A stretch of 5,131 nt of DNA, taken from positions 1 through 5,131 of the forward strand of contig JAJXXG010000954.1 in the NCBI GenBank assembly GCA_021781255.1, in the 5' to 3' direction. The position numbers were made by a program, and so were the translations under genes. This DNA comes from Acidobacteriota bacterium (GTDB lineage: Bacteria > Acidobacteriota > Terriglobia > Terriglobales > Acidobacteriaceae). The notes below the pieces were generated by a model. That model ran no database searches. It worked only from the letters and a program-made list of their open reading frames with translations, and was not told the DNA's origin. This document shows, in pieces, positions 1 through 5,131 of the stretch (position 1 is the stretch's first letter; each line of letters opens with the position of its first letter).

Positions 1-1067
1 CATAAAGAAGCTGGTAGCAAAGATTGCCCATGCGCCGCTCCAGCCGGGGAAGACAATGCCGATGAGCAGAAGGCCGCAGTTCAGAAGCGCAAATTGCCCC
101 ATCAGTAGATTGGGACGAATCCAGCGCATCAGGTGCGTTGAGGCGAAACGTCCGACTCCAAATGCAACCAAGGTCCCTGTCAGCATGTAGCCTGCGGCCT
201 TCTCTGAGAGATGGGTATAATCCTGCAAGTACTGAATGAAGTAGCTCCAGGTGCCAACCTGGGCGCCAACATAGCAAAATTGCGTCAGCACTGAGACCAT
301 GAAGTGCGGATACTGGAGCAAAGCGCGATAGCTGCCGGCCGCTCCTGCGCCGATGGCCGAACGTTCCAGCGCAACAGAGGGAAACGGCGCTCGCCAAATG
401 AGAATTCCCCACAGCAAGACCACAACACCCAAGGCCATATATCAACGACCCGCATAGTCTCGTGGAGGAGATAAGCATCATAAGTGCCTGCACGCTTAAG
501 TGCCTCGATCTGGGCCGGAGTCAACTCGACGCCGGAGAAGATAAATATGGTTCCGATCAATACACCGGCAATGGAGCCGGCGGGGAAGAATGACTGCGAA
601 AGATTCAGCCGGCGGACGGCATTGTTGGGCGTGCCCATCTGCGTGACGAGGGGGTTGGATCCTGTTTCAAGAATGCAGGAGCCACAGGCGATGACGAAGA
701 GCGCGAGCAGAAACAGCGCATAGCTGTGCGCATGGGCTGCCGGATAAAACAGAAATGTTCCGATTGCGTAGGTAAACAAGCCGGTGATGAGACCGTTCTT
801 ATAACCATAACGCCGCATGACCAAGGCGCCAGGAATCGCAATGAGAAAGTAACCAAGATAAAAGGCGGACTGAACCAGGCCCGCCTGCGCGCGGGAGAGG
901 GCGAATGATGTCATGAATTGCCGGATCAAGACATCGTTCAAATTATTCGGCACGCCCCAGAGAAAGAAGAGGCCCGTGACCAGAAAGAATGCGGATCGGC
1001 TTCCGCGAGGAATCAGGAATTCATCGGGATGGGGTTCTGCCGTGTCATATGGAACTGAGTGAGCCAT
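1..1067 (-). pseudogene. FucP-family MFS sugar transporter, frame broken, 3' end outside window
   Basis: This is an inner-membrane sugar:proton symporter of the major facilitator superfamily, L-fucose permease (FucP) type. The ATG at 1067-1065 opens a 209-residue stretch with about six membrane helices and FucP hallmarks: FFLWG followed by NNLND (Asp45), QAGLVQSAFYLGYF, and the C-I-L-E-T motif (Glu134). From memory, Asp45 and Glu134 match the acidic residues needed for proton coupling and sugar binding in E. coli FucP. After codon 441-443 the frame is wrong and soon stops at 285-287. Reading from 438 in another frame restores clear FucP sequence (QFCYVGAQVGTWSYFIQY, YMLTGT, GRF) for 146 codons, open to position 1. 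A net loss of one base (mod 3) therefore lies at about 436-443. About 75 C-terminal residues should lie outside the window. A longer in-frame GTG at 1196 is rejected because ATG 1067 has a good Shine-Dalgarno. It is the third gene of the leftward group. The family is certain; the substrate, and whether the break is real, are not. Confidence 0.85.
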
Positions 1068-1239: not shown

Positions 1240-2151
1240 TCAGGGCAGTGTTTTGATCCAGATGTTTCTGTGCGAGATCTTTACATTACCGCTGCCTTCA
1301 ATCTCGAAACCGATTAGGCCCTTGGCATGGCTGAAGGTGGGATCGTTGTCGACGAAGATCGCCATTACGTGACCGTTGATAATGTGGATCATGGTGTTGC
1401 CGTCAGCGATGATCTCGTACTGATTCCACTCACCCGGCTTGATATATTCCTGCAGATCCTGCGAAGTGCCCAGTGTGGCCAGCAAGCGGGGCTTTTGCCC
1501 CTGATTGGCTTCCACCATCTGACCGCGCCACGCGATGATTCCACGGCCAGTGCCTTGTTCGTAAAGTTGCCCGGAAAAGCGATTCCGATAGTCGAAATCG
1601 GCCTGGTAGCCCTTCAAGCTCCACTTTGCATACTTCTGGAAGAGAGCCATTCTCTGTTTCATTTGCTGCTTCTGCGCGTCGGTCATTTGCGCCATGCGCT
1701 GCGCATCCATCTGCGGACGCGAGGCCACGTTCATGCTCCGGTATTGAACGCCGCCGTTCGCGCCTTCGCCTTCCAGCTTAATCTCTAGCTTGAGTTCGAA
1801 ATTGGCAGGCTCGCCGCCGCGCCAGATGATGTTGGTGGTGCCGGCCGGGTGCTCCGGGGTGGATTCGCCTACAATTGCTCCGTTTTCAACATGCCATATG
1901 TCGGACGGGCCGTCCCAGCTTTTTAAGGTTTTGCCGTCGAAGATTTGGGTCCAGCCGGTGTGATCGTCAAAGTCGATTGGGTCAGGCTGGGTAAAGCGCA
2001 TTGCGCCGGGACGCGCGGCTGGTGCGGTTGACGTCGGTCCCTGTTGACCGCTTGCAGCGCTGGCGGAGATGAGCAAGCCAAGCCCAAGGGTCGCAATGGT
2101 AGTCGAGCAGGTGCTCAGGCGTAGGCGTAAAGCAGAAGCTGTTTCAGGCAT
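1240..2151 (-). CDS. Exported DUF1080 (3-keto-disaccharide hydrolase family) protein
   Basis: This 303-residue protein belongs to the DUF1080 family (Pfam PF06439, 3-keto-disaccharide hydrolase), a LamG/concanavalin-like beta-sandwich fold. Characterised members cleave glycosides already oxidised to a ketone at C3 of the sugar. Residues 1-35 form a Sec-type signal peptide: Arg9 and Arg11, a hydrophobic core around 19-29, and small residues A30-S31-A32 for cleavage. A short Ala/Pro-rich linker follows. The domain starts near residue 68 (IFDGKTLKSWDG, then IWHVENGAIVGE) and includes NGGVQYRS (132-139), GYQADFDYRNRFSGQLYEQG (181-200) and RGIIAWRG, which is typical of the family. Residues 147-176 form a Met/Gln-rich insert. 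The start ATG (2151) has GAGGAG eight bases upstream. It sits 32 bases after the dehydrogenase stop and is very likely co-transcribed with it. A paralog lies at 4800. The family is clear; the exact reaction and substrate are inferred. Confidence 0.93.
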   Translation of the reverse strand: MPETASALRLRLSTCSTTIATLGLGLLISASAASGQQGPTSTAPAARPGAMRFTQPDPIDFDDHTGWTQIFDGKTLKSWDGPSDIWHVENGAIVGESTPEHPAGTTNIIWRGGEPANFELKLEIKLEGEGANGGVQYRSMNVASRPQMDAQRMAQMTDAQKQQMKQRMALFQKYAKWSLKGYQADFDYRNRFSGQLYEQGTGRGIIAWRGQMVEANQGQKPRLLATLGTSQDLQEYIKPGEWNQYEIIADGNTMIHIINGHVMAIFVDNDPTFSHAKGLIGFEIEGSGNVKISHRNIWIKTLP

Positions 2152-2183: not shown

Positions 2184-3326
2184 CTAATCGAGACGGACTG
2201 TTTCCCATTGGCGGCTTTTTGCTGAACGCAATACAGCGTCGGTGACATAGTCTGTTGCCAGGCCATCACGGAATGTTGGCAACGCGGCTTGCCCGCTCTC
2301 GAGCGAGCGCACGAAGTCTGCGAATTGATGGACGAACGTGTGTTCATAGCCGATTTGCAGGCCGGGCACCCACCAGTTCTTCATGTAGGGGTGGTCTGAA
2401 TCGGTGATGTGGATGCTCCTCCAGCCGCGCAAGCGGCCCTCATCGCGATGATCGAAATAGCTCAGCCGATGCAGATCATGCAGGTCCCAGGATGCCGAAG
2501 CTTGCTCGCCGTTGATTTCTAGCGTGAACAGGGCCTTGTGGCCGCGCGCATACCTGGTGGCTTCAAAGCAGGCCAGCGAACCGTTCTGAAATCGACACAT
2601 GAACATGCTGGCGTCGTCAATGGAGACCGGTTCGACTTTCCCCGTCAGGTTGTGCTTGCGTTCCTTGATAAATGTCTCAGTAGTTGCGGAGACCTCGCGA
2701 ATCGGCCCGTTGAGCCATTGCGCCATGTCGATGTTATGCGCGAGAAGATCGCCCGTAACTCCGCTTCCAGCGACCCTGGCGTCGAGACGCCACAAGGCAG
2801 TTCCTCCTTGCGGCAGATCCTGGGAGATGGTCCAATCCTGCAGAAATTGCGAGCGATAGTGAAAGATACGTCCGAAGCGGTTCTCATCCAGCAGTTGCCG
2901 CAGGAGAACCAGGGCGGGGACGCGCCGGTAGTTGTACCAGACCATGTTGGCAGTGCCGGCGGCATCCACCGCTTTGACCATTTCCCTGGCTTCGGCCGCG
3001 GTGCGGCCCAGCGGCTTCTCGCACATGACCATTTTGCCAGACTGGGCGGCGGCAATTGCGATTTCCGCGTGGGTGTCATTGGGGCTGGCGATATCGATCA
3101 GATCGATATCGGGACGCTCGATCAGTTTGCGCCAGTCGGTTTCAGTGGTTTCGTATCCCCAGTTCTGGGCAAACTGGGCAGCGGTTTGCGCGTTTCGAGA
3201 ACAAACGGCGCGAAGCACCGGCTGATAAGCGAGTTCGAAGAAGTGTGGTGCCTGCAGGAAGGCATTGCTATGCGTGCGGCCCATAAACCCACATCCCACC
3301 AGGCCAATATTCAGGCTCCGTTTCAC
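2184..3326 (-). CDS. Gfo/Idh/MocA-family NAD(P)-dependent sugar dehydrogenase
   Basis: This 380-residue cytoplasmic oxidoreductase oxidises a sugar hydroxyl, or reduces the ketone, using NAD(P). The N-terminal Rossmann fold shows GLVGCGFMG (8-16). Other family marks are [18 protein letters not shown] (73-90), the catalytic-lysine motif C-E-K-P (Lys104), NYRR (132-135) and the substrate-domain motif [13 protein letters not shown] (Asp193, His197). The length is normal for the family. The pattern NYRR-P-A, FLQDW and SG-GD-H-IDMA recalls, from memory, the levoglucosan dehydrogenase branch, which oxidises C3 of the sugar; this was not tested. I chose the GTG at 3326-3324 because GAGGTG lies six bases upstream and homology begins at once. 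An in-frame GTG at 3407 would add 27 residues with no family resemblance and no Shine-Dalgarno. The protein has no signal peptide. It is the first gene of the leftward group, about 136 bases from the predicted transcription start. It probably works with the DUF1080 enzymes on 3-keto sugars. Confidence 0.92.
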
Positions 3327-3448: not shown

Positions 3449-3462
3449 ATGAGACGTCTCAT
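3449..3462. promoter_or_regulatory. Palindromic LacI-family operator
   Basis: ATGAGACGTCTCAT is a perfect 14-bp inverted repeat centred on CG at 3455-3456. This is the usual form of operators bound by LacI-family dimers, whose hinge leucine inserts at a central CG step. It begins at the predicted first transcribed base of the leftward promoter, a typical position for a repressor site. The adjacent divergent gene encodes a LacI regulator, and an 11-of-12 core match lies at 4801-4812. Binding is inferred; the palindrome is directly visible. Confidence 0.8.
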
Positions 3463-3469
3463 ACACCGC

Positions 3470-3499
3470 ACTTTAGGTCGGTACCTTCAGTTCTGTCAA
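3470..3499 (-). promoter_or_regulatory. Sigma70-type promoter of the leftward catabolic genes
   Basis: On the minus strand a perfect -35 box TTGACA (3499-3494) is followed after 18 bases by TAAAGT (3475-3470), which matches four of six -10 consensus bases. A seven-base step puts the first transcribed base at 3462 (an A), the first base of the operator palindrome. The A-rich stretch just upstream of the -35 box may strengthen it. The assignment rests on sequence match and geometry only. Confidence 0.65.
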
Positions 3500-3612
3500 T
3501 ACTTTTTACCATGCAATTCTCTCTCTTCGTCTGGCGAGCAGATGCTTGATCTTGCGCCATTGAGAAGGGTAGCTGCGGAGTACAGCACGATTAGAATGAA
3601 AGTAAACGAACG

Positions 3613-3642
3613 TTGGACCCATTGTGAACGCCTCATTATAAT
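3613..3642 (+). promoter_or_regulatory. Promoter of the LacI gene, probably giving a leaderless mRNA
   Basis: A perfect -10 box TATAAT (3637-3642) is preceded after 18 bases by TTGGAC (3613-3618), a weak -35 keeping only the key TTG. Seven bases separate the -10 box from A3650, the first base of the regulator's ATG, so transcription probably starts at or within a base or two of the start codon. No purine-rich Shine-Dalgarno precedes the ATG, which agrees with a leaderless message. Confidence 0.6.
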
Positions 3643-3649
3643 CACGCAT

Positions 3650-4714
3650 ATGCCGCCTACACAGAAGGAATTGGCCAAACTTGCTGGCGTTTCGGCCGGC
3701 ACGGTTTCCAATGTAGTGAATGGAGTACCGGGGGTAAGTGAGCGTGCGCGCAAAAAGGTCATGGCGGCGATCGCGGCGCTCAATTATCAGCCAAACCTCA
3801 TTGCCCGCAGTCTTAGGACCAATAGGACCCATACGCTGGGAATGGTTGTTCCGGACATTACGATTCCTTTCTTTCCGAAGCTGATCCGGGGGGCTGAGTC
3901 GGCGGCGCGCAAGGCTGGATTCTTTTTGATCGTGCTTGACTCGGAGAATAATCGCGCCCGCGAAGCGGATATGCTTGCACTTTTGCGGGCGCAGCGCGTG
4001 GAAGGGATTTTATTGGTAGCGGCTGGAGAGACTGAGGCAACAGGATCGGCCTATAATGCCTTGACGACTGCGGGCCCGCCCTTGGTGTGCCTTGATCGCC
4101 TGCCTGAGGGCTTGGAAGTTGATTCGGTGTGTGTGGATGACTTTCAGGCTGCGGAGATGGCTGTGTCGCACCTCCGCGAAAAGGGGCATTCCCAGATCGC
4201 CGTAATTACGGGACCTCTCCATCTTCAGAATGAACAGGAGCGCTTGCGAGGCTATCGCAGGGCCTTGCAGAAGAGTGGCATTCCTGTTCGCGATATGCTT
4301 ATCTGGAAGGGCGGTTTTGACGATGAAGAGGTCGCCAACGTCTGCCAGCAAGGCCTGCTTCGCCCGGCAAACCGGCCGACTGCCGTCTTCGCAACGAATG
4401 GCGTTACGGGGCTGGCCGCGCTCCGCGCCATCTATCAGATGGGATTGACGACTCCGGATGACCTTGCCTTTGTGACTTTCGACGAACTGAATTCAGAACC
4501 TCTCTTCCGTCCAGGCATTACTTCCATTGTTCAACCGGCCTATGAAATTGGTTCCAGGGCAGTCGAGTCTCTCCTCAAGCGGATTGAGCATAATAGTGCT
4601 GCGGAGAAACCTGTGGAGCGCGTTCGACTTCCGGCCCGGCTCTACGTACGGGAATCGACCAACGGATCGGCAGCCTCGTATCCAAAGAGCAAGGCAAGAA
4701 CATCTCGCAAATAG
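3650..4714 (+). CDS. LacI-family transcriptional regulator
   Basis: This 354-residue protein is a DNA-binding repressor of the LacI/GalR family. Residues 4-25 (TQKELAKLAGVSAGTVSNVVNG) are the helix-turn-helix, with A16, G17 and N21 in the recognition-helix positions that set operator preference. ARSLR with Leu55 is the hinge helix that inserts at the operator centre. Residues 60-335 form the two-lobed periplasmic-binding-like effector domain (GMVVPDITIPFF, VCVDDFQAAEMAVSHL, FATNGVTGLAALRAI, FVTFDE, ITSIVQPAYEIG). The usual Asn-Asp of the FATN-D motif is Asn-Gly here. The tail is basic. The start at 3650 is chosen because the helix-turn-helix begins at once and a TATAAT box lies seven bases upstream. 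In-frame ATGs at 3449 and 3596 would add sequence unlike the family; the one at 3449 lies inside the operator. It probably controls the leftward genes and the DUF1080 gene downstream through the sites at 3449 and 4801. The effector is unknown, plausibly a sugar or 3-keto sugar. Confidence 0.95.
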   Translation: MPPTQKELAKLAGVSAGTVSNVVNGVPGVSERARKKVMAAIAALNYQPNLIARSLRTNRTHTLGMVVPDITIPFFPKLIRGAESAARKAGFFLIVLDSENNRAREADMLALLRAQRVEGILLVAAGETEATGSAYNALTTAGPPLVCLDRLPEGLEVDSVCVDDFQAAEMAVSHLREKGHSQIAVITGPLHLQNEQERLRGYRRALQKSGIPVRDMLIWKGGFDDEEVANVCQQGLLRPANRPTAVFATNGVTGLAALRAIYQMGLTTPDDLAFVTFDELNSEPLFRPGITSIVQPAYEIGSRAVESLLKRIEHNSAAEKPVERVRLPARLYVRESTNGSAASYPKSKARTSRK

Positions 4715-4761
4715 CAACGCATGACTGGCGCTAGCTCGATTTAGATCCGCTTCCGGCGTGA

Positions 4762-4791
4762 TTGACAGAAACTTTCCGCAGCGGCTAGCAT
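4762..4791 (+). promoter_or_regulatory. Promoter of the second DUF1080 gene
   Basis: A perfect -35 box TTGACA (4762-4767) is followed after 18 bases by TAGCAT (4786-4791), which matches four of six -10 bases. Eight bases later comes A4800 of the ATG, so the message is probably leaderless or nearly so. It shares its -35 box and spacer length with the leftward promoter at 3470-3499 and likewise has an operator-like site immediately downstream. It lies in the 85-base gap after the LacI stop, in which I see no terminator. Confidence 0.6.
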
Positions 4792-4799
4792 TGGCGGTC

Positions 4800-5131
4800 A
4801 TGAAACGTCTCAATCGCCGTTCCTATTTTCCAGTGCCTCTCCTCGCGCCCGTACTGCTCTTTCTTTTCTTTTTTTCTGTTCAGCTCACACCGGCTCAAGC
4901 TACGACATCAAGGTCTTCGTCAGCGGCTGTCTCGTCCTTAGCGGAGCCATCGACGCGCCCCAGCCGCTTCCGCGAGCCCGATCCGCTCGACTTCGATGAG
5001 CACACCGGCTTTGTCCCCCTCTTCGATGGCAAGACTCTTCACGATTGGGATGGCGATCCAAAGCTTTGGCGGGTAGAGGACGGCATCCTTGTCGGAGAGA
5101 CAGAGAAGGGCTATCCGCACAACAACAGCTA
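4800..5131 (+). CDS. Second exported DUF1080 protein, cut by window end
   Basis: The ATG at 4800 opens 110 full codons with no stop up to the window edge; the C-terminal two thirds lie outside. Residues 1-34 are a clear Sec signal peptide: basic K2-R3...R6-R7, a hydrophobic core (14-27, very rich in Leu and Phe) and cleavage motif A32-Q33-A34. After a Ser/Ala/Pro-rich linker, residues 57-100 align without gaps to residues 53-96 of the DUF1080 protein encoded at 1240-2151, with 26 of 44 positions identical, including DPLDFDEHTG, LFDGKTL and WRVEDGILVGE. It is therefore a diverged paralog and probably also acts on 3-keto-glycosides outside the cytoplasm. No Shine-Dalgarno precedes the ATG; a promoter 8 bases upstream suggests leaderless translation. 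It lies 85 bases after the LacI gene on the same strand and carries an operator-like site over codons 1-5. The family is clear; the substrate difference from the first paralog is unknown. Confidence 0.9.
   Translation, partial: MKRLNRRSYFPVPLLAPVLLFLFFFSVQLTPAQATTSRSSSAAVSSLAEPSTRPSRFREPDPLDFDEHTGFVPLFDGKTLHDWDGDPKLWRVEDGILVGETEKGYPHNNS
4801..4812. promoter_or_regulatory. Second LacI operator-like site, overlapping the start codon
   Basis: TGAAACGTCTCA differs from the core of the 3449-3462 palindrome (TGAGACGTCTCA) at one base of twelve and keeps the central ACGT. It begins nine bases past the -10 box at 4786-4791, where the leftward operator core begins eight bases past its own -10 box. 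It also encodes part of M-K-R-L, so some of the match could be chance coding sequence. Confidence 0.6.

Follow-up and report, generated by a model that had tools for sequence, protein, structure and literature searches.

The 5,131-nucleotide stretch of DNA that we analysed (hereafter the window) comes from a member of the Acidobacteriota, which are among the commonest soil bacteria. It carries a gene for a LacI/GalR-family repressor (lacI) with a similar short site on either side. Are these sites the operators of this repressor, which genes would they control, and which sugar would act as the inducer?

Layout of the locus and its two candidate operators

The leftward genes of the window follow directly behind the first site, on the minus strand. 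They are gfo (2184..3326; 380 residues from a GTG at 3326), coding for a Gfo/Idh/MocA dehydrogenase, a first DUF1080 gene (1240..2151) and a gene for a FucP-like MFS sugar symporter (1..1067), truncated by the window edge. The plus strand codes for lacI (3650..4714; 354 residues) and then for a second DUF1080 protein (4800..5131), also truncated by the window edge and with a likely start at ATG 4800-4802. The gfo product is levoglucosan-dehydrogenase-like, with 335 bits against NF052479, below the cut-off of 650 for LgdA membership, and 281 bits against PDB 6a3f, which we take to be levoglucosan dehydrogenase. The product of DUF1080 gene 1 belongs to PF06439, the 3-keto-disaccharide hydrolase family (109 bits; cut-off 26.8), and the partial product of gene 2 reaches 22.9 bits, under the same cut-off. 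By eye, gene 2 has no Shine-Dalgarno sequence, and its N terminus resembles a secretion signal, as in a protein of the secreted type. The symporter gene consists of two overlapping frames (window 285-443, minus strand; the two pieces were scanned apart) with a break near 440, which is either a true frameshift or a contig assembly error.

The LacI protein combines an N-terminal LacI helix-turn-helix (PF00356, 54 bits; cut-off 27) with a periplasmic-binding-protein-like sugar domain (PF13377 and PF00532, both above cut-off), and its sequence matches in the PDB include CcpA (188 bits) and chains of RbsR and PurR. A TATAAT hexamer (3637..3642, plus strand) that ends 7 bases before the lacI ATG is its probable promoter. 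A TANNNT box is found 5-10 bases 5' of the start in 28 of the 34 lacI loci compared below, versus 69 of 589 called genes, a rough control whose starts come from a crude longest-frame caller. This placement suggests that the lacI mRNA is leaderless. With its own promoter some 180 bp from the first site, lacI is probably not directly repressed through it.

Candidate operator 1, TGAGACGTCTCA (3450..3461), lies within a perfect 14-bp palindrome, ATGAGACGTCTCAT (3449-3462). It is found 8 bases beyond promoter 1 (3470..3499, minus strand), which is directed toward gfo and comprises TTGACA at 3499-3494, an 18-base spacer and TAAAGT at 3475-3470. Probable operator 2, TGAAACGTCTCA (4801..4812), is one base away from the consensus and overlaps the likely start codon of DUF1080 gene 2. 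It lies 9 bases beyond promoter 2 (4762..4791, plus strand), in which TTGACA at 4762-4767 and an 18-base spacer precede a TAGCAT ending at 4791. An even palindrome with a central CG near the presumably controlled promoters is characteristic of LacI/GalR operators, according to PMC4052901.

An earlier note on this DNA had described the palindrome, two 12-base cores agreeing at 11 positions, the same promoter geometry at both sites (TTGACA, an 18-base spacer and a -10 box 8 or 9 bases before the site), and a first site facing the leftward catabolic genes with the second facing DUF1080 gene 2. All of these features were seen at base level. The note had also held that meeting this arrangement twice around a LacI gene speaks against chance. 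Here, the statistics of the window are modest: counted strand by strand, it contains four matches to the motif with at most two mismatches, whereas shuffled versions average 0.68 and reach four in 4 of 200 cases. By itself the window makes the pair no more than suggestive, but the comparison across genomes settles the question in favour of the claim.

The motif and the LacI orthologue across genomes

Related loci were found with an alignment of 22 LacI proteins, that of the window included. The proteins of loci L001-L022 share 55-70% identity with the window's LacI and were treated as orthologues; the next matches drop to 43%. Further genomes came from three overlapping draws of 398, 397 and 200 genomes, in which we found no LacI relative above 70% identity. 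LacI proteins of 80-85% identity exist (P0003-P0010), and the DNA comparison covers relatives of at most 70%. As a control, we used 50 of the 366 genomes of the first draw without a match at E<=1e-100, with at most five candidates scored per genome; they have the lowest handle numbers (G023-G074 minus G053 and G056) and were picked before inspection.

Of the 33 Acidobacteriota genomes that carry the LacI orthologue, 31 contain the exact TGAGACGTCTCA (109 sites; 8 for a reversed-pattern control), versus 2 of 50 genomes of the same family without it (2 sites; reversed-pattern control also 2). The corresponding Fisher p value of 4e-18 overstates independence, and the association is inflated by shared descent, because the control genomes are unmatched for kinship. 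Neither of the two control-genome sites has a promoter of the family geometry. The two orthologue-bearing genomes devoid of the exact motif are G015, which has the TGAGTCGTCTCA variant, and G021. Orthologues of gfo (E<=1e-120) were found in 31 of the 33 genomes with LacI and in 2 of the 50 without (G042 and G059).

We determined the positions of sites relative to lacI with the relaxed motif TGA[AG][AT]CG[TA][CT]TCA in 34 lacI loci, the window included. In 22 loci a site lies upstream of lacI at a distance below 600 bp, and in 17 one lies between -30 bp and +300 bp of the lacI stop codon, the window being among both, and 16 loci have sites on both sides. The upstream site is missing in 12 loci (G005, G009, G016, G017, G018, G021, G053, G116, G148, G198, G224 and G248) and the downstream site in 17. 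The lacI locus of G005 has a downstream site only, and in G009, G016, G018, G148 and G248 a site is found instead before the cupin/Gfo operon or a rhamnulose-phosphate aldolase gene. The earlier note had made its proposal depend on conservation of the motif before orthologous genes; the motif does flank many lacI orthologues and tracks the orthologue across genomes.

The association with promoters was analysed at 80 nonredundant sites, two control-genome loci being left out. A promoter was called when a TTGACA-like box (at least 5/6), a spacer of 16-19 bases and a -10 box (TANNNT) occurred within 70 bp of the site. Such promoters accompany 59 of the 80 sites, whereas random positions drawn from these loci have one in 147 of 4000 cases. 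With loci added later, 61 of 99 sites have such a promoter. The gap between the -10 box and the operator peaks at 10-11 at the 80 sites. With transcription conventionally starting 7 bases after the -10 box, the operator would be centred at about +10.5 in the relatives, and the two sites of the window at +8.5 and +9.5. Across all loci, 123 places match the relaxed motif. A promoter at a gap of 6-16 accompanies 60 of them, with a spacer of 18 bases in 52 of these 60. The three positions before the core are A in 43, 55 and 43 of these 60 places, and the position after it is T in 40. A pattern search linking the operator with a distant TGTCAA gave no matches. The earlier note had proposed to search related genomes for the motif near promoters of DUF1080, Gfo/Idh/MocA or sugar transport genes; there it does precede genes related to those of the window in type, with the same promoter geometry.

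The 60-site set includes loci that had been picked by the exact motif, and we repeated the count at position 4 on 53 loci picked by the LacI protein alone. The latter contain 61 places that match the operator at 10 or more of 12 positions; 34 of them have a promoter, and 29 of these 34 are exactly TGAGACGTCTCA. Position 4 is G in all 34 promoter-linked sites of this set, as in 60 of 60 in all loci, and the mirror change, T at position 9, occurs once in each set (1/34 and 1/60). We also collected TTGACA-17/18-TANNNT promoters with no core required: an operator (at least 10/12) follows 60 of these 121 promoters, and the six imperfect operators among those 60 vary at positions 5, 8 and 9, never 4. 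The degenerate motif put forward previously, TGARACGTCTCA, must therefore be narrowed, since its R at position 4 stems only from the second site of the window. The corrected motif reads TGAGACGTCTCA, preceded by an A-rich flank and followed by T.

Genes behind the operator and the candidate sugar

A promoter at a gap of 6-16 was found at 57 of 99 nonredundant sites, and in 55 of these 57 cases the next gene matches a reference gene for sugar use, outer-membrane proteins or cytochromes. Classified by best match to our own reference set, the next genes code for PQQ-like propeller proteins heading an operon (18), cytochrome/HHH proteins (9), cupin-like proteins heading an operon (9), outer-membrane barrel proteins (9 + 6), DUF1080 proteins (3), a sugar ABC importer (1) and others (2). 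The other 42 sites have no such promoter, including 9 of the 11 before an ABC importer gene; at several importer sites the operator, by eye, directly abuts a -10-like box. These 42 also include many of the extra sites in G018 and G248, which are inside coding sequence.

The main operon of the relatives (L132 and L134) has the order PQQ-PQQ-cupin-TIM barrel-Gfo-DUF1080-DUF4432. Its cupin-like gene has no Pfam or NCBIfam match and a marginal PDB match (E 0.19). No operator was found in the 400 bp upstream of gfo orthologues in 30 loci (best 8/12; minus-strand loci not reoriented), and in the loci that we read gfo is an internal gene of an operon, with the operator at the operon's head. Related DUF1080 genes are found behind the operator in L134, L003 and L019, and also in L149 and L162, where no promoter was called. 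The regulon that the earlier note had called local is indeed centred on lacI, but it is not solely local: some sites lie far from lacI, before outer-membrane protein genes and, in some genomes, before the rhamnulose-phosphate aldolase gene.

Several loci showed further features. In L132 (5739-7766), a sugar ABC importer adjoining lacI has its permease and periplasmic binding domain in one frame (PF02653 + PF13407), apparently a fusion, and relatives of similar length are found in 14 loci. Two perfect TGAGACGTCTCA sites 25 bp apart precede the gene of a PF25183 outer-membrane protein in G022 (L148:18140-18176). The neighbourhoods of operator matches in G018 look near-identical in pairs (L190/L192 and L191/L193), pointing to a large duplicated segment. 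In G007, another LacI-family gene has a perfect operator at its start (L161:5041), which suggests a regulatory cascade or a paralogue sharing the specificity.

As for the sugar, L-rhamnose or a product of rhamnoside breakdown is a lead only, to which we give a little under an even chance. In Terriglobus roseus (G018), a bifunctional rhamnulose-1-phosphate aldolase/dehydrogenase (993 bits; cut-off 634) is encoded behind the operator and next to a rhamnulokinase-like gene (319 bits; cut-off 528). The bifunctional aldolase gene is present in 33 of 33 genomes with the LacI orthologue versus 16 of 50 without; the window has none. The 33 genomes with LacI gave 30 loci of the aldolase gene (three gave none), and 9 of these have an operator (at least 10/12) in the 400 bp before the gene, compared with none of 10 loci from the 16 genomes without LacI; the background is 25 of 2000 reversed random 400-mers. 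The operator is missing in the other 21 of the 30 loci. The binding domain of the ABC importer is nearest to RhaS (223 bits; cut-off 342).

Alternatively, the pathway and its inducer may belong to the breakdown of 3-keto-glycosides or of a levoglucosan-like anhydrosugar rather than to rhamnose, a serious contender that we would nevertheless not favour. The resemblance of gfo to the levoglucosan dehydrogenase model and to PDB 6a3f argues for it, as does the proximity of gfo to DUF1080 genes and, in relatives, to a TIM-barrel isomerase-like gene; DUF1080 proteins have been proposed to be 3-ketoglycoside hydrolases (PMC9007349). It accounts less well for the operator at the rhamnulose-1-phosphate aldolase genes of relatives and at the ABC importer, which is nearest to importers of rhamnose and other sugars.

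The second site, the proposed regulation and known systems

Whereas operator 1 matches the consensus fully, site 2 (4801-4812) is the weaker claim because position 4 is G in all 34 promoter-linked sites of the LacI-picked loci. We nevertheless consider it a probable true operator. The other reading, which we find unlikely, keeps operator 1 as real and takes site 2 to be nothing but the opening of a coding sequence, next to a promoter-like match that arose by chance. Its A at position 4 is seen in none of the promoter-linked sites of either set, it overlaps the likely start codon, and the coding sequence would open with ATG AAA CGT CTC (Met-Lys-Arg-Leu), a usual beginning of signal peptides; moreover, coding regions contain fewer than 1% of the sites of the LacI family, as stated in PMC4052901. 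However, a relaxed site occurs just after lacI in half of the 34 loci, and the TTGACA-18-TAGCAT-9 arrangement agrees with the family geometry. In addition, DUF1080 relatives are found behind the site elsewhere, and in L149 the ATG of the operator opens a reading frame.

On this evidence as a whole, lacI very probably encodes a LacI/GalR-family repressor with the operator TGAGACGTCTCA that controls gfo and DUF1080 gene 2. From the observed sites, their promoter geometry and their co-conservation with LacI, we infer binding, repression and induction as follows. The repressor, assumed to be a dimer as in its family, would recognize TGAGACGTCTCA. When it occupies operator 1, whose centre lies at about +8 to +9 relative to the gfo promoter, it would block RNA polymerase like LacI at lac O1, and at operator 2 it would likewise block DUF1080 gene 2. 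A sugar, for which L-rhamnose or a product formed from rhamnosides is the leading candidate, would release it and turn on the genes of the dehydrogenase, the DUF1080 hydrolase and uptake.

That the operator is read mainly by one or more other LacI-family paralogues, lacI being a mere neighbour, seems improbable: first-look searches gave 6 to 29 unconfirmed candidates per matching genome, which makes paralogues likely, and the G007 site lies across the start of another LacI gene, but the motif follows the lacI orthologue, the one LacI protein for which presence was compared, and its sites flank lacI in many loci.

Under a more daring and rather doubtful proposal, both of the following would hold. 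In Acidobacteriota, this one LacI would bring three activities under a single regulon, namely the catabolism of L-rhamnose, the oxidation of (rhamno)glycosides by a Gfo/DUF1080/PQQ pathway and uptake through the outer membrane of the TonB type. In the window, operator 2 would at the same time supply the start codon and the positively charged beginning of the signal peptide for a secreted DUF1080 enzyme made from a leaderless mRNA.

One LacI orthologue group and one 12-bp operator form a testable pair. Co-regulation could group DUF1080, DUF4432, PQQ-like and PF25183 outer-membrane proteins, whose functions are uncertain, into one pathway, and the regulon offers a handle for finding the sugar on which they act. 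Our searches of the open-licence PMC literature listed no earlier account of the motif or of a LacI regulon in Acidobacteria.

The system looks like a LacI-repressor regulon of the ordinary kind, with L-rhamnose or a similar sugar as its possible inducer. In Escherichia coli, lac O1 is centred near +10 of the promoter that LacI controls. The predicted operators resemble it in this position, and the comparison concerns position only. The LacI-family survey of Ravcheev et al. (2014; PMC4052901) covers seven named phyla, and 'Acidobacteri' does not occur in its text. The present locus shares with its regulons the even palindrome, the central CG and the catabolic promoters beside the regulator gene. 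In contrast to more than three-fourths of the local regulators in that survey, which are autoregulated, operator 1 would serve a divergent promoter. LacI-family regulators of rhamnose use are RhaR in Actinomycetales, RhmR in Chloroflexus and RhiR in Rhizobiales (PMC3870299), a survey in whose text 'Acidobacteri' is likewise absent. The proposed regulon would be similar to theirs in the LacI-family control of uptake and catabolism of rhamnose or its oligosaccharides; theirs have 20-bp palindromes in other lineages, whereas the targets here include gfo, DUF1080 and PQQ-like genes. Finally, the levoglucosan (lgd) cluster of Bacillus smithii, as described in PMC7676230, also has a Gfo/Idh/MocA dehydrogenase gene, with genes like those of sugar isomerases and a sugar ABC importer nearby. 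It differs in that gfo scores under the levoglucosan dehydrogenase cut-off and that the relatives of the window add DUF1080, PQQ-like and MauG genes.
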